This document shows, piece after piece, positions 12,963 through 24,694 of a stretch of DNA of 59,375 nucleotides. Numbering within the stretch: position 1 is the stretch's first letter; every line of letters starts with the position of its first letter. The notes beneath the pieces are model-generated. The model saw only the letters and a program-made list of their open reading frames with translations, had not been told where the DNA came from and searched no databases. Where the stretch lies: NCBI GenBank assembly GCA_009861545.1, contig VXME01000105.1, positions 1-59,375 on the forward strand. Direction: 5' to 3'. This DNA comes from Acidobacteriota bacterium (GTDB taxonomy: Bacteria; Acidobacteriota; Vicinamibacteria; Vicinamibacterales; UBA8438). A program made the position numbers and the translations under genes.

Positions 12963-14606
12963 ATGTCCACGCTTCCTGCTCCCGGCACGAAGGCGGCCTC
13001 GTTCGCGTTGCGCGACGCCGCCGGCGACCCCTGCGCGTTCGGTCCCGACGGCCCTGCCGCGCCGGCGACGCTGCTCTTCTTCTTCAAGCACGACTGCGCG
13101 ACGTGCGACCTGACGGCGCCCCTGGTCGAACGGGTGCACCAGGCGCTGTCGGGCTCCGGCCTGCGCGTGCTGGGCGTCTCGCAGGACGACGCGGCGCTCA
13201 CCGCCGGTTTCGCCGAGCGGCACGGGCTCACGCTTCCGCGTGCTCTCGACGCCGAACTGCTCGTTTCCGAAGAGTACGGCTTCGACGCCGTCCCCGCGTT
13301 GGTGCTGGTCGACGGGGATGCCAACGTCCTGGCCAGCTTCGAGGGTTTCGGCAAGACCGACCTGCAGACGCTGGCCGACCTCGCGGCCGAGCGGTGCGGT
13401 GGCGCCGCGCCGGCGGTAGAGAGAGAGGGCGAGTCGCTACCCGACTCGCGGCCCGGGTGCGGCTCGAAGGTGCACGATCCCGACGTGGCCCGCCGGCTGG
13501 CGGCCAGACGCGATGCCTCGAGGCTGGCCGCGCGCCGGGTCCGCATGCCGGCCGACCTCGATCCGTTCGAGTTCCTCGACCAGCAGGGTCTGACCGACGG
13601 CCTGCCCGTGGTGCCGCCCACCGAGGAACGTGTGGCGCGGATGCTGGCCGGCACCTCGCGGCCGCCCGGTGACGTGGTGGCCGACGTGCCGCCCAACCTG
13701 GCTCCGGCCACGGTGGAGAAGGTCGCCATCAACGCCGTCATGGCCGGCTGCAAGCCGGTGTACCTGCCGGTGGTCATCGCCGCCGTGGAGGCCGCCTGCA
13801 CGGATGCGTTCAACCTGCACGGGGTGCTGGCGACGACCTACTTCGTCGGGCCGCTCGTCATTGTCAACGGGCCGATCCGCCACGAGATAGGGCTCAACTG
13901 CGGCAGGAACGTCTTCGGCCAGGGCACCCGCGCCAACGCCACCATCGGGCGCGCCCTGCAGCTCGTGGTTCGCAACGTGGGCGGCGGCCGTCCCGGCGAG
14001 GTGGACATGTCCACGCTCGGCCAGCCGGGCAAGTTCGGCGCCTGCATCGGCGAGCTCGAGGAGCTGAGCTGCTGGGAGCCGCTGCACGTCGAGCGCGGCT
14101 TCGACCGCGAGCAGAGCACCGTCACCGTCTTCGCGGCCGAGGCGCCGCGCGCCATTCGCGACCAGCTCTCCCGCAACTCGCGGTCGCTGGCGGCCAGCAT
14201 GGGGTTCTCGCTCGAAGCCATCGCCCACGTCAAGCTGCACGGCATGGATCAGGCGCTGCTGGTGGTCTCGCCCGAGCACGCCCGCACCTTCGAGCGCGAC
14301 GGGTACACGCGGGACGACCTCCGCGCCCGGATTCAGGAGGTGACCGCCCGGCCGCTGCGCGACGTGCTGCCGAACGACGAGTGCCAGAAGGGGACCGTGG
14401 CGCGCGCGCTGCCGAAGGACTGGCTCGGTCCCGGCGGCCGGCCGACACCCGAGGCGCTGGACCGCCCCTTCCCGAAGTTCTCGCAGGCGGACAACATCCT
14501 CATCATGGTGGCCGGCGGCACGGCGGGGAAGTTCTCGGCGGCGGTCGGCGGGTGGGCCAGCGGCGGACTGGGGTCGAAGGCGGTCACGCGGCCGATCCGG
14601 CGGTAG
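12963..14606 (+). CDS. Thioredoxin-like domain fused to TDGLPVVPP domain (UGSC-associated)
   Basis: About 547 residues. Residues 1-150 form an AhpC/TSA-thioredoxin-like domain: APGTKAASFALRDAAG, FFFKHDCATCD with a CxxC redox pair, GVSQDDAALTAGFAERHGL, VPALVLVDGDANVL. After a charged linker comes a 340-residue domain starting DPFEFLDQQGLTDGLPVVPP, with FNLHGVLATTYFVGPLVIVNGPI, GLNCGRNVFGQGTRANATIGRA and a C-terminal NILIMVAGGTAGKFSA. The same domain occurs alone at 20275-21399. It has no assigned function that I know. It lies 1.1 kb before one UGSC selenoprotein gene, and the lone copy is 100 nt before the other, so a redox partnership is inferred. No signal peptide. Confidence 0.85.
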   Translation: MSTLPAPGTKAASFALRDAAGDPCAFGPDGPAAPATLLFFFKHDCATCDLTAPLVERVHQALSGSGLRVLGVSQDDAALTAGFAERHGLTLPRALDAELLVSEEYGFDAVPALVLVDGDANVLASFEGFGKTDLQTLADLAAERCGGAAPAVEREGESLPDSRPGCGSKVHDPDVARRLAARRDASRLAARRVRMPADLDPFEFLDQQGLTDGLPVVPPTEERVARMLAGTSRPPGDVVADVPPNLAPATVEKVAINAVMAGCKPVYLPVVIAAVEAACTDAFNLHGVLATTYFVGPLVIVNGPIRHEIGLNCGRNVFGQGTRANATIGRALQLVVRNVGGGRPGEVDMSTLGQPGKFGACIGELEELSCWEPLHVERGFDREQSTVTVFAAEAPRAIRDQLSRNSRSLAASMGFSLEAIAHVKLHGMDQALLVVSPEHARTFERDGYTRDDLRARIQEVTARPLRDVLPNDECQKGTVARALPKDWLGPGGRPTPEALDRPFPKFSQADNILIMVAGGTAGKFSAAVGGWASGGLGSKAVTRPIRR

Positions 14607-14694
14607 TGACGCAGAGAGACTGGACCGTGATCGTTGTAGGCTGGTCTTGATCAGCGCTTTCAGTTCCACGCCGGAGCCGCAGGCGGAACCGGGA

Positions 14695-15573
14695 ATGCAC
14701 GGCGCCGACATGGCAAGAGATAACAGCCTCACGGACAGCGCCCGACTGTGCAAGCTGGCCGAACGGATCGGCGCGGCGATGGACGCCGGGATGGTCGTGC
14801 TGTTCGGCTCGCGCGCCACGGGAACCGCGCGCCACGACAGCGACGTGGACATCGCCATCATCGACGCGCGCAAAGCGGACAGCGAGAGCGGATGCCGGGT
14901 GCTGGCCGGCGCCGGGGCGGACGAGCCTCCGATCGACAGCGGCCATCTTGCTTCCCGGGACTTCACGGACTGCTTCGCCAGCACGCGCGGACTGCACCGC
15001 AGTGTATGGAACGACGGGTTGATCCTGTACAGCCGGGAACGCGGCATCGAGAGCCCGCCGCCGCGCCTGCGCGACAGGCTGCAGGTGAACCGATTCGACA
15101 AGACGACCGAAATGGGATGGCAGAAACTGACGGCGGCGGAAGAAGCGCGGCGCGCGATCGAAAAGGCCGACGAGCAGCGAAGCAACGCACGGGCGATGCC
15201 GGGCACGGCAAGCGAGACCGGGTACATGATGCTCATGGCCCAGTCGCTGGAACAGGCCATCAAGGCCGTTCTGCACGCCAGCGGCCAACGGGTGCGGCCC
15301 GGACACCATCTGCAGGAATACGCCGAGAGGACTGAGAGACTCGGCGAACGGATAACCGACGGGATCGATCACCGCGAGCTCAAGCTGATCTCCGAAGCGG
15401 GGAACCAGGGGCGATACGGCAACTGGGAACACGAAGGCCACGTGCCCCGCGAGCGGGCGCAGGCCATCGTCGACATCGTGTACGAGCGCTGTGCAAGTCG
15501 GATAGCGGACCTCGTGGGCGACCGAATGCAGAGATCGAGCGAAGCTCCGGGTCCTTCAGGCAGAAGAGAGTGA
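14695..15573 (+). CDS. MNT nucleotidyltransferase-HEPN domain fusion protein
   Basis: The N-terminal minimal nucleotidyltransferase carries GSRATG and the catalytic GS-x10-DxD spacing (GSRATGTARHDSDVD); FTDCFAS and HRSVW follow. The C-terminal half is a helical HEPN domain (ETGYMMLMAQSLEQAIKAVLH, HHLQEYAER) with a candidate R-x5-H site, RYGNWEH. In MNT/HEPN toxin-antitoxin pairs the MNT protein adenylylates and silences the HEPN RNase; here both parts are in one chain. The start is uncertain: ATG 14695 has AGGCGGA 8 nt upstream, ATG 14710 and TTG 14647 are alternatives. It sits between the TDGLPVVPP fusion and UGSC gene 1. Confidence 0.75.
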   Translation: MHGADMARDNSLTDSARLCKLAERIGAAMDAGMVVLFGSRATGTARHDSDVDIAIIDARKADSESGCRVLAGAGADEPPIDSGHLASRDFTDCFASTRGLHRSVWNDGLILYSRERGIESPPPRLRDRLQVNRFDKTTEMGWQKLTAAEEARRAIEKADEQRSNARAMPGTASETGYMMLMAQSLEQAIKAVLHASGQRVRPGHHLQEYAERTERLGERITDGIDHRELKLISEAGNQGRYGNWEHEGHVPRERAQAIVDIVYERCASRIADLVGDRMQRSSEAPGPSGRRE

Positions 15574-15705
15574 ATTCACCCTGCCTCTTCGCTCCGGACC
15601 TGCTCGACAACTTCATGTCGGTGGACCAACCTGCCCACAGCAAGGCGGCGCCGATCAGTGAACGCGCCGTGTGCTAGAGTGAAGCGCATCCAGCCGGGAG
15701 GCCGC

Positions 15706-16239
15706 ATGCACGACGCTTCCGTCATTCTCGATCCGACCGACGAACGCGAACCGATCGGCCGGCAGCTCGCGGCGCGCGCCGGCGGCCTGTCCGGCACTGT
15801 CGGAATCGTCGACATCTCGAAGCCGCGCGGCGACGTCTTCTGCGACGAGCTCGAGGCGTTGCTGCGGGACCGGCAACCCGGCCTCGACGTCATCCGCCTG
15901 CGGAAGCCGACCTTCACGCGGCCGGCCCCGACCGATCTGCGCGAGGAGGTGGCCGAGCGCTGCAAGGCGGTGATTCAGGCCCTCGCCGATTGAGGGTCCT
16001 GCACGTCGTGCAGTGTGCACGACCTGGTCGACTACGAGGCGCAGGGCATCCCCACGGTGATGGTGGCGTCCACCGAGTTCGTCGAGGCCGCCGAGCGGCA
16101 GTCGGTTGCGCTCGGCATGCCGGATGTGGCGGACCGTGCGGTCTATGTGCCGCATCCCATCCAGGACGCGACGGACGACGAGATGCGCGCCAAGGCGCGC
16201 GCGGCGTACGACGCCATCGTCGAGGCGATCACGCACTAA
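15706..16239 (+). CDS. UGSC family selenoprotein, copy 1 (in-frame TGA at 15991-15993 = Sec96)
   Basis: One gene of 177 residues when the TGA is read as selenocysteine. The upstream part (MHDASVILDPTDEREP to VIQALAD) and downstream part (HDLVDYEAQGIPTVMVASTEF to AIVEAITH) are in the same frame and join through Sec96-Gly-Ser-Cys99-Thr-Ser-Cys102. That is the UGSC signature of a known family annotated as (seleno)protein. Eleven bases after the TGA begins a perfect 8-bp hairpin. The start ATG has a ribosome site (GGGAGG). The fold is probably alpha/beta with the Sec/Cys pair at a strand end; the reaction is unknown. A standard caller would report two truncated proteins here. Confidence 0.9.
16005..16023 (+). 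promoter_or_regulatory. SECIS-like hairpin for UGSC copy 1
   Basis: GTCGTGCA-GTG-TGCACGAC: eight perfect base pairs with a 3-nt loop, starting exactly 11 nt after the TGA (15991-15993). In E. coli fdhF the SelB-binding upper stem also starts 11 nt after the UGA. The copy in UGSC gene 2 differs at a single base, in the loop. It lies inside the coding sequence, as bacterial SECIS elements do. Confidence 0.75.
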
Positions 16240-16383
16240 CCGACGCAGTTCCGGACCTTCGTCGCGTGGTGTCGGGCGTCCGGCCCGTGGAGCGCGCCGC
16301 GGCATCTTGGACGCGGGAGCCGGAGTTCGTGGGTGCCGTGAGCGGTCCGCCGTCCGCTTTCCGAGCCCCGACGGTCGAATTCC

Positions 16384-17943
16384 ATGGACACCGTCGCCGT
16401 CGCGGTCATCGTCCTCTACCTGATCGCCGCCACCGCCATCGGCAGCCTGATGGCGCGGCGGACCACCACGTCCACCGGCTGGGCGGTGGCCGGGGGCGGG
16501 ATGTCGACGGTGCTGGTGGCGGTGGGCATCGCCGGCACGCGCATCGGCGGCGCCGGTACCTACGGCGTGGCCGGCGACGTCATCAGCGGCGGGGTCTGGA
16601 ACTTCTGGTGGTACGGCATCAGCACGTTCCTGGCGCTGTCGCTCGTCGGCCTCTTCTTCGCCGTCTACTACCGCCGGTTGCGGTTGCAGACCGTCGGCGA
16701 GATCTTCACGCTCCGGTGGGGGAACCGGCGTTGCCAGTGGCTGACCAGCCTCTGCGTCCAGACCGAGTACGTCATCGTCAACCTGATCGAGGCCTACGTG
16801 ATCGGCGTCATCGTCAGCACCCTGACCCCGCTGTCGATGTTCTCGGGCGTCATGGTGTCGGCCGCCATCTTCGCCACCTACGTCTCGCTCGGGGGGTTGT
16901 GGGGGACGGCGATCACCAACCTGATCCATTGCGTGGTGGTGCTCGTCGGGCTGGGAGCGGTCGGTCTGCTGGGCATCGACCAGCTCGGCGGCTGGAGCGA
17001 AGTCACGGCAGCCATCGGGGGGCACCTGTCGGCGGCGTCGCGCGACACGGCGGCCTGGTGGGGATTTACGGGCGCCGGGTGGCTGCCGGTGTTCGCGATG
17101 ATCTTCTCGGCGGCGATACACACACCCGCCGCCTCGGTCTACACCAACTACGCGGCGGCGGCGCGGAACGAGCGGCACATCGCTCCGGCTTTCGTCGCGG
17201 CTGGAATCATCGCCGCGGGGATGCCGATGCTCGCCGGGCTCATCGCCATCCTCACCACGGCGCGCTACGGGATCGACACCGGGCTCTCCGGCTACCGCAA
17301 CCTGACCACGCTCGCCTCGGAGATCAGTCCGGTGGTCGGCGGCGTCGCTCTGGCCGCGGTGCTCGCCGCGGTCATCTCCTCCGGCGGTCCGATCCTGTTG
17401 TCGAGCGCCACGATGTTCGTCCGCGACTGGCTGCCGTTCACCCGCCGCTACGACTCGGCGCGCAGGCTCCGGGCCTACCAGGTGACCACTGTCGTCTACG
17501 CCATCGTCGCCGCCCTGGCCGCGTGGGTGGTGGCCACCCGGACCACCATCTCCATCCTCGATCTGCTGCTGTTCGGCTTCGCGATGGTGGTGCCGCCGGC
17601 GATTGCCGTCGGCTACGTCATCTACTGGCCGCGCACCACCGAGCGGGGCGCGTACTGGGGCATGGCGGTCGGCTACGGCGCGGGTCTGGTCTGGTTCGCG
17701 CTCATCAAGCTGGCTCTGACGGTCGGGTTCAGCGCGCCGGAGGACGCTTCGGCCCTGCACCGGCTGCTCGTCTACTGCCTCACGGTGGACGGAGAGGGAA
17801 TCGATCCGTCGTACGTCACGACCTTCGTTCCGCTGGTGGCGATACCGCTGGTCTCGCGCCTGACGATCGACACCTCGGGGGATCGCGAGAAGTTCTACGC
17901 GATGCTGGACGGCTCGCGGCCGGTCGACCGGGGAAGGGTATAG
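16384..17943 (+). CDS. Sodium:solute symporter (SSS family)
   Basis: About 519 residues of hydrophobic helices (at least 12), N-terminus MDTVAVAVIVLYLIAATAIGSLMARR. Family features are GIAGTRIGGAGTYGVAG in the second helix region, VGEIFTLRWGNRRCQWL, AAVISSGGPILLSSATMFVRD (the sodium-site helix) and a long C-terminal pair of helices. It imports a solute with Na+; the substrate cannot be told. It lies 144 nt after UGSC gene 1 on the same strand, which makes it a candidate importer of the substrate used by the neighbouring enzymes. The gap before it shows no gene. Confidence 0.88.
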   Translation: MDTVAVAVIVLYLIAATAIGSLMARRTTTSTGWAVAGGGMSTVLVAVGIAGTRIGGAGTYGVAGDVISGGVWNFWWYGISTFLALSLVGLFFAVYYRRLRLQTVGEIFTLRWGNRRCQWLTSLCVQTEYVIVNLIEAYVIGVIVSTLTPLSMFSGVMVSAAIFATYVSLGGLWGTAITNLIHCVVVLVGLGAVGLLGIDQLGGWSEVTAAIGGHLSAASRDTAAWWGFTGAGWLPVFAMIFSAAIHTPAASVYTNYAAAARNERHIAPAFVAAGIIAAGMPMLAGLIAILTTARYGIDTGLSGYRNLTTLASEISPVVGGVALAAVLAAVISSGGPILLSSATMFVRDWLPFTRRYDSARRLRAYQVTTVVYAIVAALAAWVVATRTTISILDLLLFGFAMVVPPAIAVGYVIYWPRTTERGAYWGMAVGYGAGLVWFALIKLALTVGFSAPEDASALHRLLVYCLTVDGEGIDPSYVTTFVPLVAIPLVSRLTIDTSGDREKFYAMLDGSRPVDRGRV

Positions 17944-18070
17944 ACCGCTGCCCCTGTTGGACATGCGGTAGCCGGCGTGGCGGCCTCAGTGGTTGGAGTC
18001 GATGAGGAACACTTCGCTCTCCTCTCCGCGGCCAGCCGCGTCGTCCGCAGACGCGGCATGAGCGGAGACT

Positions 18071-18076
18071 TATAAT
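18071..18076 (+). promoter_or_regulatory. -10 element of the beta-oxidation gene
   Basis: A perfect TATAAT, 41 nt before the ATG at 18118. There is no recognisable -35 at 16-18 nt. The leader carries AGGAGAG as ribosome site. It is the best -10 match in this part of the window. Confidence 0.55.
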
Positions 18077-18117
18077 CGCTCGCGTCGCACCCGGTTTCGT
18101 TCCAGGAGAGGTCACGC

Positions 18118-20226
18118 ATGCCCGGTTCGGTCACGTTCGAACGCCACGACGACGTCGCGCTGCTGCGGCTGACGAATCCCCCCGTCAACGGCCTGAGCTT
18201 CGCCATGCGCGCCGCGCTGGGTGAGCGCGTGGCCCAGGCGCTGGCCGACGAAGCCGTCAAGGCGATTGTCATCGCCGGGGCCGACCGCATGTTCTGCGGC
18301 GGGGCCGACATCCGGGAGTTCAGCGCGCCGCCGCCGCCCGGAGCGGCACACCTGCCCGCGATCCTGGACGAGATCGAGGCCTCGCCGAAACCCGTCGTCG
18401 CCGCCATCCACGGCGTGGCGGCCGGAGGCGGCATGGAGGTGGCGCTGGCGTGCCACGTGCGGCTCGCCGCGCCCGGCACGCGGCTCGGGCTTCCGGAGGT
18501 GACGCTCGGCATCCTGCCCGGCGCGGGAGGCACGCAGCGCATGCCGCGGCTCATCGGTGTGGAGAAGGCGCTGGAGGTGATCGTCGGCGGCAAGCTCCAT
18601 CCGGTGGAGAAGGCAGCGGCCCTGGGCTTCGTCGACGAGTGCGTCGAGGGCGACCTGGTGGCGACGGCGATCGCCCGGGCTCGTCAGCTCGCAGCCGACG
18701 GCACGCCGCTACGGCGGGCGTCGAAGCTCACGGAGCATCTGGAGGCGGCGCGCGGCCGCCCCGGGATCTTCGACGACTTCCGCAAGAAGATGGCGAAGCG
18801 CGCTCGCGGCTTCGACGCGCCGTACGCCTGCGTCGACTGCGTCGAGACGACGCTGACGATGCCCTACGCCGAGGCGCTGAAGAACGAGCGGGTCGTGTTC
18901 CACCGGCTACGCGAATCGGACCAGTCGGCGGCGCAGCGGCACGCCTTCTTCGCCGAGCGCGAAGTGGCCAAGATCCCGGATGTGCCGAAAGACACCCCGG
19001 CCCGGCCGATTGCGTCGGCGGGAGTCGTCGGCTGCGGCACGATGGGCGGCGGGATCGCGATGAGCATCGCCAACGCGGGCCTGCCGGTGACGGTTCTCGA
19101 ATCGTCGCCCGAGGCGCTCGACCGCGGCATGGCCATCATCCGGAAGAACTACGCGGCGACCGTTTCGAAGGGGCGGCTGTCGCAGACGCAGATGGACGCG
19201 CGGCTGGCGCGCATCACCCCGACGCTGGACGACGCCGCCCTGGGCGCCGCGGACGTCGTGATCGAGGCGGTGTTCGAGGAGCTGCCGCTGAAGAAGGAGG
19301 TCTTCGCCCGGCTCGACCGCGTGTGCAAGCCGGAGGCGATCCTGGCCACCAACACCTCGACCCTCGACGTCGACGCCATCGCCGCCGCCACGTCGCGGCC
19401 GGCGCAGGTCGTCGGCACCCACTTCTTCAGCCCGGCGAACGTCATGAAGCTGATGGAGAACGTGCGCGGCGCCCGGACGTCGCCCGAGACCATCGCCACC
19501 GTCATGAAGCTGTCGAAGAAGCTGGGCAAGGTGGGCGTGCTGGTCGGTGTCTGCGACGGCTTCGTCGGCAACCGGATGCTCTACGCCTACCGCCGGCAAG
19601 CGGACTTCCTGCTGGAGGAAGGCGCGCTGCCGGAGCAGATCGATCGGGTCATCTATGACTTCGGCCTGCCGATGGGGCCCTACCAGATGGCGGATCTCGC
19701 CGGTCTGGACGTGAGCTGGCGGGTGCGCAAGGCGCAGGCGCCGACCCGGCCGGCGCACCTGCGCTACTCGCCGATCGCCGACCGCATCTGCGAGCAGGGT
19801 CGCTACGGGCAGAAGACCGGCGCCGGCTGGTACCGGTACGAAGCGGGGAGCCGCGTCCCCATTCCCGACCCGGCCATCCACGATCTCATTGCCGGGGTGT
19901 CCGCGGAGTTCGGCATCGAGCGCCGCGCGATCGGCGACGACGAGATCGTCCCGCGGTGCCTCTATCCGCTCGTCAACGAGGGCGCGAAGATCCTGGACGA
20001 GGGACTCGCGCTGCGCGCCAGTGACATAGACATCATCTGGATGCATGGCTACGGCTTCCCGCGCTACCGCGGCGGTCCGATGTTCTGGGCCGACCTGGTG
20101 GGGCTGCGGACCGTCTACGACGCGATGAGCCGGCTCCACGACGAGCACGGCGAGTGGCTCGAGCCGGCGCCGTTGCTGAAACGCCTCGCGGAGCAGGGCA
20201 AGGGGTTCAAGGACGTCGGGAAGTGA
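18118..20226 (+). CDS. Fused enoyl-CoA hydratase/3-hydroxyacyl-CoA dehydrogenase
   Basis: Bifunctional beta-oxidation enzyme of 702 residues in the FadB/FadJ order. Residues 1-190 are the crotonase domain (NPPVNGLSFAMR, AGADRMFCGGADIREF, the oxyanion-hole IHGVAAGGGMEVAL, ILPGAGGTQRMPRL). From about 300 comes the NAD-binding dehydrogenase (VVGCGTMGGGIAMSIANAG, Rossmann GxGxxG). Then follow the C-terminal domain with HFFSPANVMKLMENV and GFVGNRMLYAY, and a second C-terminal repeat (YGFPRYRGGPMFWAD). Hydration and oxidation of acyl-CoA occur in the cytosol. Whether it serves fatty acids or a branched or aromatic acid route is not determinable. The next gene starts about 50 nt after the stop. Confidence 0.93.
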   Translation: MPGSVTFERHDDVALLRLTNPPVNGLSFAMRAALGERVAQALADEAVKAIVIAGADRMFCGGADIREFSAPPPPGAAHLPAILDEIEASPKPVVAAIHGVAAGGGMEVALACHVRLAAPGTRLGLPEVTLGILPGAGGTQRMPRLIGVEKALEVIVGGKLHPVEKAAALGFVDECVEGDLVATAIARARQLAADGTPLRRASKLTEHLEAARGRPGIFDDFRKKMAKRARGFDAPYACVDCVETTLTMPYAEALKNERVVFHRLRESDQSAAQRHAFFAEREVAKIPDVPKDTPARPIASAGVVGCGTMGGGIAMSIANAGLPVTVLESSPEALDRGMAIIRKNYAATVSKGRLSQTQMDARLARITPTLDDAALGAADVVIEAVFEELPLKKEVFARLDRVCKPEAILATNTSTLDVDAIAAATSRPAQVVGTHFFSPANVMKLMENVRGARTSPETIATVMKLSKKLGKVGVLVGVCDGFVGNRMLYAYRRQADFLLEEGALPEQIDRVIYDFGLPMGPYQMADLAGLDVSWRVRKAQAPTRPAHLRYSPIADRICEQGRYGQKTGAGWYRYEAGSRVPIPDPAIHDLIAGVSAEFGIERRAIGDDEIVPRCLYPLVNEGAKILDEGLALRASDIDIIWMHGYGFPRYRGGPMFWADLVGLRTVYDAMSRLHDEHGEWLEPAPLLKRLAEQGKGFKDVGK

Positions 20227-20274
20227 CGGCCAGGGCCGCGGGGTCCGGACGGACGGCGGCCTGCGCGCAGGGAC

Positions 20275-21399
20275 ATGGCGATGTCTGATTCCGGAACCGT
20301 TGCCGAGCGCGCGGAACGCGCCGCCGCGGCCGGCGGGATCGCGGATCTGATCGAGTACTACTTCGAGCAGGGCTGGACGGACGGCCTGCCGGTGGTGCCG
20401 CCGACGCCCGAGTCGGTGGCGGCCATGGTGGATGCCTTGGGGGGCGACGCGGCCCATCTCGAAACCCGCGTCCCGCCGCGCTGGGGCAACCTCACCCGCG
20501 AGGTGCTCGCCATCAATCTGGTGCTTGCCGGCTGCCGGCCCGACTACGCGCCGGTGGTGCGGGCCGCGCTGTTGGCACTCACGAGCAGCCCCTTCAACCT
20601 CCACGGCGTGCAGGCGACCACCCACATGGCCGCCCCGCTGGTCGTGGTGAACGGGCCGATCCGACAGGAGATCGGACTGAACGCGGGCCCCAACGTGTTC
20701 GGATCCGGCTTCCGGGCCAACGCCACCATCGGTCGCGCCATCCGTCTCGTGCTGCTCAATGTGGGCGGCGGCTGGCCGGGCGACCTCGACAAGAGCACGC
20801 TGGGACATCCCGGCAAGTACACCTTCTGCATCGCCGAGAACGAGGAGGCGAGTCCCTGGGCGCCGTACCACGTCGAGCACGGTTACCGGCCCGAGGACAG
20901 CACGGTCTTCTGCATCGCCGCCGAGGGGCCGCATAGCGTCACCAACCACGTGGCGAACGACCCGGAAGGCATCCTCGACAGCATCGCGTCGGCGATGAGC
21001 ACCATCGCCCACAACAACGCCGTCAGCAGCGGCTCGTGCGCCGTCGTCATCGGGCCGGAGCATGCCGCGACGATTGCCGCGAAGCAGTGGACGCGCCAGG
21101 ACGTGCGGCGCTACCTTTGGTCGGCGACAACCAATACGTTCGACGACATCAGCTTCGGGGGGCGCTACGGGAAGATTTACAACCGCAACCTGCCCCGCTG
21201 GTACAGGCGGGAGCCGGGGGCGCGCATTCCCATCGTGCCGTCCGCGGACGACATCCACCTGTTCGTGGCCGGCGGCGACGCCGGCCGCTTCTCGGCGTTC
21301 TTGCCGGGATGGGGGCACATGACGTCGCCCGTGCTGCGGGCGATCGACGGTCGGCCGCCGGGGACGGGGGAGTGCGTCGACGGGACGTGTGCGCTCTGA
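20275..21399 (+). CDS. Stand-alone TDGLPVVPP-domain protein (UGSC-associated)
   Basis: About 374 residues, homologous along its length to the C-terminal 340 residues of the fusion at 12963-14606: GWTDGLPVVPPTPESV, FNLHGVQATTHMAAPLVVVNGPI, GLNAGPNVFGSGFRANATIGRA, NVGGGWPGDLDKSTLG, and DIHLFVAGGDAGRFSAFLPG. It lacks the thioredoxin domain but ends in GECVDGTCAL with two cysteines. No signal peptide. ATG 20275 or 20281 could start it (AGGGA upstream). UGSC gene 2 follows 100 nt later on the same strand. No function is known to me; repeated pairing with UGSC genes suggests a shared pathway or complex. Confidence 0.8.
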   Translation: MAMSDSGTVAERAERAAAAGGIADLIEYYFEQGWTDGLPVVPPTPESVAAMVDALGGDAAHLETRVPPRWGNLTREVLAINLVLAGCRPDYAPVVRAALLALTSSPFNLHGVQATTHMAAPLVVVNGPIRQEIGLNAGPNVFGSGFRANATIGRAIRLVLLNVGGGWPGDLDKSTLGHPGKYTFCIAENEEASPWAPYHVEHGYRPEDSTVFCIAAEGPHSVTNHVANDPEGILDSIASAMSTIAHNNAVSSGSCAVVIGPEHAATIAAKQWTRQDVRRYLWSATTNTFDDISFGGRYGKIYNRNLPRWYRREPGARIPIVPSADDIHLFVAGGDAGRFSAFLPGWGHMTSPVLRAIDGRPPGTGECVDGTCAL

Positions 21400-21498
21400 G
21401 GGAGGACGTCTTGGCCGCTCACGTCATGCAGGTGAGGCAGGCAGGTGAGGAAGCGCTTCAAGACCACTGACGGCATGGATTCGACTCGGGAGTGACAG

Positions 21499-22044
21499 AT
21501 GGCTAGAGAACGCCTGCCGGACGGACGCATCGTCTACGACCCGCGCGGGACGGTGACCGCGGAGCCGCGCGAGCTGGCGGCCCGCCTGGAGATGCTCGAC
21601 GGCGTTCGGCTAGGCGTGCTGGACAACACCAAGTGGAACGCGTCGAAGCTGTTGCGCCGCGTCGTCGCCGGCCTGGAGACTGGACTGACGTTCGCTCAGG
21701 TGAACTTCTACGACAAGGAGAGCTTCTCCCGGCCGGCGCAGCCGGACCTACTCGACGTGATCGCGGCGGAGAACGATGCGGTGATCACCGCGATAGGCGA
21801 TTGAGGGTCGTGCACGTCGTGCAGTCTGCACGACGCGGTCGGCCTTGAGGAGCGGGGCGTTCCGACGGCGGTCATCGTGACCGACGCGTTCCTCCATGAA
21901 GCCGACGTGCAGCGAACGGCGCTCGGCGCGGAGCGCCTCGATCCGGTAGTCATCACCCATCCGCTCAGCACGCTGACCGACGAGGAGATCGCCGGGCGCG
22001 CCGCCGAGGCGGCGGCCGGCGTCAGGCGGACCCTCGTCGCGTGA
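21499..22044 (+). CDS. UGSC family selenoprotein, copy 2 (in-frame TGA at 21802-21804 = Sec102)
   Basis: Reading the TGA as selenocysteine gives 181 residues. The first part (MARERLPDGRIVYDPRG to DAVITAIGD) continues in frame through Sec102-Gly-Ser-Cys105-Thr-Ser-Cys108 into HDAVGLEERGVPTAVIVTDAF and ends RRTLVA before the TGA at 22042-22044. The part after the first TGA has no start codon or ribosome site of its own, yet aligns with copy 1 after the Sec. Elsewhere the paralogues are well diverged, so this is not a recent duplicate. It follows the lone TDGLPVVPP gene. Role unknown; a thiol/selenol redox centre is likely. Confidence 0.9.
21816..21834 (+). promoter_or_regulatory. SECIS-like hairpin for UGSC copy 2
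   Basis: GTCGTGCA-GTC-TGCACGAC: eight perfect pairs and a 3-nt loop, beginning 11 nt after the TGA at 21802-21804. It matches the copy 1 hairpin at 18 of 19 positions, including silent third codon positions. Confidence 0.75.
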
Positions 22045-23425: not shown

Positions 23426-24694
23426 ATGAACGTCGATCTGGCCTACGGCCGCGGCCGCCTGTCGGTCGAGTTTCCGGATGACCGCACCACGGTCCTGGAG
23501 CCGTCCTACGTCGGCGGCCTGCCGGACGAGCAGTCGGCCATTCGCCATGCCTTGCGGATGCCGCTGGGGACGCCGCCGCTCGCGTCGCTCGTGAAGGCCG
23601 AGCAGAGTGTCGCCATCTCGGTCTGCGACATCACCCGGCCGATGCCCAGCGACACGCTGCTGCCGGTGCTGCTCGACGAGCTGGCCCATGTGCCCGACGA
23701 GCGGATCGCCATCCTGATCGCCACCGGCACGCACCGGCCCAACGATCGCGGCGAGCTGATCGAGATGCTCGGGCAGCCGATCGTCGACCGCTATCCCATC
23801 GTCAACCACAGCGCGTTCGACGAGGACGGTCTGGTGCACCTGGGCGAGGTGGAGCCGCGGGTGCCGGTCTGGCTGAACCGGCACTGGGTCGAGGCCGACT
23901 TTCGCATCACGACCGGGTTCGTCGAGCCGCACTTCTTCGCCGGGTTCAGCGGCGGGCCGAAGCTGGTGGCGCCGGGGCTGGCCGGGTTCAGGACAACGAT
24001 GCGGCTGCACGACGCCGAGATGATCGGCAGCCCGAACGCGCGGTGGGGCGTCATCGAAGGGAACCCCATTCAGGAAGCCATACGCCGCATCGCCTCCCAC
24101 GTCGGCGTCCACTTCAGCGTCGACGTCGCGATCAACCGCGACCGGCGGATCACCAGCGTCGCGGCGGGGGAGATCTTCGCCGTGCACCGGACGATAGCGG
24201 CGCGCGTCAAGCAGAGCGCCATGCAGGCGTTCGACGCGCCGTTCGATGTCGTCGTCACGACCAACAGCGGCTACCCGCTCGACCAGAACCTCTACCAGAG
24301 TGTGAAAGGCATGTCGGCGGCGGCGCAGGTGGTCAGGCAGGGCGGGGCCATCGTCTGCGCCGCGGAGTGCGCCGACGGGCTGCCGTCACACGGCGAGTAC
24401 GGCGACATCTTGCGGGCCCGCGAGACGCCGGAGGCGCTGCTCGAGATGATTTGCGCGCCGGGCCACAACCGGCACGACCAGTGGGAAGTGCAGGTCCAGG
24501 CGCAGATCCAGCAGCGCGCCGAGGTGTTCCTGAAGACCGACGGCCTCGCGCACGACGAGGTCCGCGCGGCGCACCTGACGCCCATCGACGACGTCGCGGA
24601 GACGACGCGCGAGCAGCTCGACCGGGCCGGTCCGGCGGCGCGGGTCTGCGTCCTGCCCGAGGGGCCGCAGACGATTCCTTATCTGGCCGGGTGA
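23426..24694 (+). CDS. larA: Lactate racemase (LarA) family protein
   Basis: Nickel-pincer-dependent racemase/epimerase family (LarA, DUF2088), about 422 residues. Landmarks are VAISVCDITRPMP, IATGTHRPN, the signature FVEPHFFAGFSGGPKLVAPGLAG (Lys that would bind the NPN cofactor), MRLHDAEM, and DVVVTTNSGYPLDQNLYQSVKGM in the second domain. No larB, larC or larE (cofactor synthesis) is in the window. Many LarA homologues act on 2-hydroxyacids other than lactate, so the substrate is open. It is divergent from the ATPase, and the VapC gene converges at its 3' end. Confidence 0.88.
   Translation: MNVDLAYGRGRLSVEFPDDRTTVLEPSYVGGLPDEQSAIRHALRMPLGTPPLASLVKAEQSVAISVCDITRPMPSDTLLPVLLDELAHVPDERIAILIATGTHRPNDRGELIEMLGQPIVDRYPIVNHSAFDEDGLVHLGEVEPRVPVWLNRHWVEADFRITTGFVEPHFFAGFSGGPKLVAPGLAGFRTTMRLHDAEMIGSPNARWGVIEGNPIQEAIRRIASHVGVHFSVDVAINRDRRITSVAAGEIFAVHRTIAARVKQSAMQAFDAPFDVVVTTNSGYPLDQNLYQSVKGMSAAAQVVRQGGAIVCAAECADGLPSHGEYGDILRARETPEALLEMICAPGHNRHDQWEVQVQAQIQQRAEVFLKTDGLAHDEVRAAHLTPIDDVAETTREQLDRAGPAARVCVLPEGPQTIPYLAG

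Follow-up and report, generated by a model that had tools for sequence, protein, structure and literature searches.

Among the described systems closest to the one examined here are the glycine, sarcosine and betaine reductases and D-proline reductase, whose selenoproteins GrdB (selenoprotein B) and PrdB are represented by the families PF07355, TIGR01917 and TIGR04483. Cleavage of the C-N bond by glycine and proline reductase is thought to pass via a selenium-carbon intermediate (PMC10298544), and one grd operon holds the genes trxA and trxB alongside those for the selenocysteine (Sec) protein and its partner (PMC10059138). UGSC was already a named selenoprotein family by 2008; the passages of PMC2398784 that deal with it place it among the commonest aquatic selenoproteins, suggest a thioredoxin-like fold and report its fusion to a domain termed 'Unknown_1', and the passages of the literature that name UGSC assign it neither a function nor a partner, an electron donor or a kinship. 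We describe two UGSC genes together with two copies of a domain of ~340 residues, labelled TDGL after its TDGLPVVPPT motif, in a 59,375-nucleotide contig of an Acidobacteriota bacterium (VXME01000105.1, assembly GCA_009861545.1; this whole stretch is referred to as 'the window'), and report that UGSC and TDGL are an obligate pair. 'Unknown_1' may be TDGL.

The window features given below all lie on the + strand. The first TDGL domain (13551-14558) forms the C-terminal part of a 547-residue open reading frame (TDGL-1, 12963-14606), the N-terminus of which is a thioredoxin/TlpA-like domain (PF08534, E 2.8e-10, 40.6 bits against a cut-off of 26.6) with a CATC motif (Cys45-Ala-Thr-Cys48). The second (TDGL-2, 20275-21399) is a stand-alone protein of 374 residues, modelled by AlphaFold at a predicted local distance difference test score (pLDDT) of 92, with a flexible, redox-like C-terminal tail (Cys367-x4-Cys372) for which that score falls below 50. 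An earlier sequence-only reading of this DNA had recognized the domain as present twice, and the two copies are indeed 46% identical over 334 residues (E 4e-91). The UGSC genes (UGSC-1, 15706-16239, 177 residues including Sec; UGSC-2, 21499-22044, 181 residues including Sec) encode proteins that are 36% identical, and each contains one in-frame TGA (15991-15993 and 21802-21804, respectively) inside the motif D-U-G-S-C-T-S-C. When the TGA is read through, both match PF24696 (E 4.2e-44 and 151 bits for UGSC-1, E 6.2e-56 and 190 bits for UGSC-2; cut-off 25) and NF041046 (157 and 149 bits; cut-off 125) and are thus members of the UGSC family. The whole 6.35-Mb genome, which is 99% complete, holds exactly two TDGL and two UGSC genes, all within one 9-kb stretch.

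UGSC accompanies TDGL far beyond this genome. Among 297 genomes of the phylum, TDGL is present in 32, UGSC in 33 and both in 31 (P 1.5e-38). A scan of genome contigs yielded 80 TDGL loci, spanning Acidobacteriota, Alpha-, Beta- and Gammaproteobacteria, Chloroflexota (including SAR202), Rokubacteria, Poribacteria, Actinobacteria, haloarchaea and others. The sequence-only reading would have been refuted had the two families rarely lain within 10 kb of each other in other genomes, and this is decisively not so; a UGSC gene is found within the locus at 71 of these 80 loci, and it accompanies 87 of 96 TDGL copies, always on the same strand (87 of 87) and mostly less than 250 bases away, with recurrent gene fusions. 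At the remaining nine loci the UGSC gene is found elsewhere in the genome in every case. Two gene orders occur, TDGL followed by UGSC (with the motif UGSC-x-x-C) and UGSC followed by TDGL (with the motif UGSC-x-x-W), and the latter is often a single fused gene with an internal TGA, as in most copies of genus g57 and in several from other phyla. An AlphaFold2 model of one such fusion, computed from an alignment of UGSC-TDGL fusions and TDGL rows only (no stand-alone UGSC rows), reached a pLDDT of 91.5 and a predicted template modelling score of 0.92, and therefore indicates that the two domains are held in a fixed mutual arrangement. The trees of the TDGL and UGSC partners also agree (r 0.74, matched by none of 1000 permutations).

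In genus g84 (loci L081 and L082), most genomes hold, at distant sites, a further solitary copy of TDGL and another of UGSC, so that a 2:2 count is kept. At L132, L133, L147, L150, L158, L159 and L163 the TDGL gene is followed by a diverged second one (UGSC-TDGL-TDGL2), with three TDGL genes at L159, which suggests a heteromeric partner. Genus g57 (L080, L076, L077) carries at least 6-11 fusion paralogues per genome; some of these have neither Sec nor Cys (MSGGSTT, KTSGSDS), some bear a twin-arginine-like signal (RRSFLKG), and such paralogues may be exported non-redox relatives.

The two pairs in the window do not descend from a local co-duplication, as the sequence-only reading had proposed. 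The copies are only 46% (TDGL) and 36% (UGSC) identical, each pair has its own orthologues elsewhere, and the partner trees match: TDGL-1 and UGSC-1 have their nearest relatives at five shared loci, ranked alike for both (L154, L067, L065, L153, L129), and TDGL-2 and UGSC-2 have theirs at a different set that includes Alphaproteobacteria. By these comparisons the pairs are old subfamilies that have evolved separately and stand side by side in this lineage.

The in-frame TGA codons of both UGSC genes encode Sec. Just 3' of the Sec codon lies a selenocysteine insertion sequence (SECIS) hairpin (16007-16021, CGUGC AGUGU GCACG, in UGSC-1; 21818-21832, CGUGC AGUCU GCACG, in UGSC-2) that is kept family-wide. 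Across 44 distinct sequences pairing extends to 98.6% of cells, and one pair flips from C-G to G-C in the 15 sequences in which the protein changes Cys to Trp; none of 500 shuffles matches this pairing, all slid versions score far lower, and an AGU-N-U loop is kept in most sequences. An Rfam search of the window gave no SECIS family match, and the hairpin is established by covariation instead. The genome also carries the decoding machinery, with selA (531 bits), selB (274 bits; partial, close to a contig end) and tRNA-Sec (59.6 bits). Versions with Cys in place of Sec (CGSC) occur in haloarchaea (Natrialba), Roseicella and Sphingomonas, and selenium is therefore not obligatory for the TDGL-UGSC system. 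In Blastococcus (L161, 6481-7908), a TAG codon stands at the Sec position of a fusion between a thioredoxin reductase-like protein and UGSC; for the Geodermatophilaceae, UGSC proteins with UAG-coded Sec have been reported (PMC5330540). A locus of the Minwuiaceae (L087, 2067-12680) assembles selA, selB, TDGL, UGSC, an Ndh-selD fusion and a PrdB-like selenoprotein within ~11 kb.

Comparison of UGSC with profiles of the GRDB family shows remote homology between its active-site half and GrdB/PrdB. The hhalign probability is 86% (E 4.7e-6) with Sec aligned on Sec, and 26 shuffled and reversed decoys reached at most 1.4%. The alignment sets UGSCTSC, the motif of both window copies, on UATCSRC of a GrdB (L170), followed by E..GIP and (I/V)PHP. 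PF07355 matches neither window protein, so UGSC is to be regarded as a relative of GrdB/PrdB and not as a member; the NCBIfam GrdB/GrdF models gave sub-threshold matches only, of 16-17 bits. Small PrdB-like selenoproteins of the GRDB family with Sec (often UPxC) are themselves common in Acidobacteriota (L171-L189).

A sequence search of solved structures returned no relative of UGSC or TDGL. The AlphaFold model of the UGSC domain comprises five alternating strands and helices in a flavodoxin/PurE/LarB-like alpha/beta fold, and its best solved matches (Z 10-11) include Rossmann-like domains, PurE and LarB among them. GrdB, PrdB and GrdE are not among the Foldseek and VIA matches listed for this model, which excludes none of them, and the thioredoxin fold is likewise not among the matches listed and is not thereby excluded. 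As modelled, the fold of UGSC would be flavodoxin-like and is not obviously the thioredoxin fold proposed in 2008.

The pair is also linked to thioredoxin. Pair 1 and many Acidobacteriota relatives have TDGL joined to a thioredoxin-like domain in one protein, a thioredoxin reductase-like gene with a CAxC motif lies directly 5' of UGSC-TDGL-TDGL2 in Alphaproteobacteria, and in Blastococcus a thioredoxin reductase-like protein is fused to UGSC itself. On plasmids, the genes are arranged as trxB-trxA-TDGL-UGSC in Arthrobacter sp. ERGS1:01 and as TDGL-UGSC-trxB on pTHAF8_b of Roseovarius sp. THAF8, and trxB lies near TDGL-UGSC in Variovorax sp. SRS16. At the thresholds used, a thioredoxin or thioredoxin reductase gene or domain was recognized at 12 of the 80 chromosomal loci and at 5 of the 13 on plasmids. 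The TDGL subfamily of pair 2 is without a thioredoxin domain, and its C-x4-C tail, which the model leaves disordered, recurs in 11 other members. The domain and the tail never occur together (0 of 136 cases) and are thus mutually exclusive; the two would be interchangeable dithiol relays. Measured against the passages that name UGSC, four findings appear to be new: that it has an obligate partner, that the pair is linked to thioredoxin, that the dithiol relay comes in alternative forms, and that UGSC is akin to GrdB.

The genes around the pair bear on its possible substrates. As the sequence-only reading had it, a symporter and a beta-oxidation fusion lie between the two pairs: a sodium:solute symporter (SSF; 16384-17943; PF00474, E 5.8e-25), possibly for substrate uptake, and a FadJ-like enoyl-CoA hydratase/3-hydroxyacyl-CoA dehydrogenase (18118-20226; PF02737, E 3.9e-61; PF00378, E 6.1e-36). 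Outside the window these were seen beside the pair in the closest relatives only (symporter at L065, FadJ-like gene at L065 and L067). That reading also had a UGSC gene follow each TDGL gene on the same strand, which holds for both pairs, with the qualification that in pair 1 an open reading frame intervenes (14647-15573; PF18765, E 2.2e-8; PF05168, E 1.8e-5), a toxin-antitoxin-like fusion of MNT (nucleotidyltransferase) and HEPN. This frame is no part of the TDGL-UGSC system; at L065 the TDGL-1 and UGSC orthologues are 0.2 kb apart and MNT-HEPN is missing between them. At L067, additional sequence lies between TDGL-1 and UGSC. A LarA-type nickel-dependent 2-hydroxyacid racemase follows pair 2 (23426-24694; NF033504, 511 bits; PF09861) and adjoins it elsewhere in Acidobacteriota (L064, 9314-10618; L066, 4312-5616; L085, 10113-11384); if linked to the system, it may hint at a 2-hydroxyacid substrate.

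Neighbours at other loci comprise LysR and IclR regulators, TRAP, TctC, MFS and ABC transporters, CoA-transferases, acyl-CoA dehydrogenases, lyases and hydrolases, a set that by analogy resembles clusters for the uptake and breakdown of small carboxylic acids. The pair is found on plasmids, and its distribution is patchy. On haloarchaeal plasmids of two Natrinema species (L191, L200), a DUF6282 gene follows UGSC-TDGL; DUF6282 matched 2 of 127 operon neighbours, and it also lies near TDGL in Haladaptatus (L201). In Arthrobacter (L195, 5683-6471) and Natrinema zhouii (L200, 3850-4317) the pair has a nearby gene annotated as phosphosulfolactate synthase; a sulfonate substrate was considered on account of such neighbours and set aside, two cases being too few.

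Because of these catabolic neighbours, the company of Sec protein, partner, trxA and trxB in glycine reductase clusters, and the chemistry of a selenium-carbon intermediate, we favour a thioredoxin-driven reductase with Sec or Cys at its active site and small organic acids as substrates, a reading to which we would assign about an even chance. UGSC and TDGL would be two obligate halves of one oxidoreductase. UGSC, the small catalytic half, would present Sec (or Cys) and a resolving Cys, as UxxC(xxC), between a strand and a helix of its flavodoxin-like alpha/beta domain, much as the active-site domain of GrdB/PrdB does, and TDGL, the larger partner, would bind the substrate. The selenolate would attack a small organic acid imported by the neighbouring transporters, with reductive cleavage of a C-X bond or reduction of an oxidized group, and Sec would end up bonded to the UxxC Cys in a selenenylsulfide. 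A dithiol would then reset the enzyme, this being the thioredoxin domain on TDGL in pair 1, the CxxxxC tail in pair 2, or a separate or fused thioredoxin reductase-like protein in other cases. We infer the catalysis, its reductive direction, the class of substrate and the role of TDGL from the considerations above. The sequence-only reading had spoken of an undescribed selenium-dependent catabolic or redox system; an undescribed redox system of two proteins that uses selenium is supported, selenium is not obligatory given the CGSC versions, and 'catabolic' is plausible from the neighbours only.

Several observations weigh against a reductase of this kind. The neighbouring genes differ widely among loci and point to no one substrate, 68 of the 80 TDGL loci are without a recognized thioredoxin or thioredoxin reductase, and the match between UGSC and GrdB spans only ~60 residues. 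In 79 sequences TDGL has neither an invariant Cys nor a known cofactor motif, and so gives no sign of being a pyruvoyl partner like GrdE/PrdA, although self-cleavage would not be visible in sequence. D36, N81, R154 and E188 of TDGL are invariant. The loss of Sec and Cys from some fusions in genus g57 means, furthermore, that the mechanism cannot hold for every member.

The strongest competing explanation is a general thiol-disulfide or peroxide-reducing antioxidant system, in which UGSC would be a Sec-dependent reductase fed by thioredoxin and TDGL a regulator or scaffold. It would account for the thioredoxin linkage and the UxxC motif, and the pair occurs in aerobic genera, among them Blastococcus, Roseicella and haloarchaea. 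The neighbours, however, are mainly dedicated transporters, CoA-transferases, lyases and LysR/IclR regulators and not stress genes, the many diverged paralogues per g57 genome suggest many substrates, and UGSC is related to GrdB/PrdB and not to peroxiredoxins; we consider such a system unlikely.

Another possibility is that TDGL is itself the enzyme, either a fumarase-like hydro-lyase or similar to cyclic amide hydrolases, with UGSC serving only in redox protection or regulation. No Pfam or NCBIfam model matched TDGL. Foldseek gave full-length, weak matches to class-I fumarate hydratases (E 1.6e-4, TM, the template modelling score, at most 0.33) and to Toblerone-fold hydrolases; VIA alignment reached only about Z 5 to fumarases, with a best value of Z 6.0, to chorismate mutase over 85 residues, and in view of these low scores no fold is assigned to TDGL. 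The three invariant cysteines needed for a 4Fe-4S cluster are missing (no Cys is invariant in the 79 sequences, Cys87 being present in at least 90% of them), and TDGL as a member of the class-I fumarate hydratases was accordingly rejected. Sec or Cys is also kept in nearly all UGSC partners, and TDGL as the enzyme with UGSC in a protective or regulatory role seems improbable.

A role for the pair in the handling of selenium itself or of a metal(loid), for example in delivery, storage or detoxification, would suit its position among selA, selB, the Ndh-selD fusion and the PrdB-like selenoprotein in the alphaproteobacterium at L087, but haloarchaeal Cys-only versions lie among carbon-metabolism genes, and in the window's own genome the pair lies away from selA and selB, which makes such a role quite improbable. 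A shared history of transfer with no joint action fits the patchy distribution and plasmid location and is scarcely credible in light of repeated fusion across phyla, a confidently modelled single folding unit, agreeing partner trees and co-occurrence even when unlinked.

UGSC is no longer an orphan but can be assayed, given its obligate partner, likely electron donor, kinship with GrdB/PrdB and cultured hosts (Arthrobacter, Roseovarius, Variovorax, Blastococcus and haloarchaea). We tentatively advance a broader proposal, in which we have rather less confidence: a new, aerobic class of thioredoxin-driven Sec reductases cleaving C-X bonds of small organic acids. Such enzymes would be the counterpart, outside anaerobes, of glycine and proline reductase, would bind their substrates with a new fold and would have been carried by transfer into Acidobacteriota, Proteobacteria, Chloroflexota, Rokubacteria, Actinobacteria and haloarchaea, some lineages having many paralogues specialized for different substrates. 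If the pair is indeed a C-X-cleaving reductase, selenium-based reductive chemistry hitherto assigned to anaerobic metabolism would be operating in aerobic carbon cycling.

Set against known systems, TDGL shares a weak overall likeness of topology with class-I fumarate hydratases and Toblerone-fold cyclic amide hydrolases, and differs from the former in its low TM and Z scores and absent cluster-binding cysteines, which leave no basis for membership. Modules of the thioredoxin reductase/thioredoxin system (TIGR01292, PF08534) are fused to the pair or lie beside it and are the same electron suppliers as in glycine reductase clusters, although the thioredoxin reductase-like proteins 5' of UGSC in Alphaproteobacteria and Actinobacteria, unlike the usual enzyme, are without a GGGDSA-like NADPH-site motif. 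With GrdB and PrdB, UGSC shares UxxC(xxC) after a strand, E..GIP and (V/I)PHP, a two-component architecture, trxA/trxB in the operon and a Sec replaceable by Cys; it differs from them in its N-terminal half, in its partner, which is TDGL instead of GrdE/PrdA with their pyruvoyl group, and in its presence also in aerobic genera and haloarchaea.

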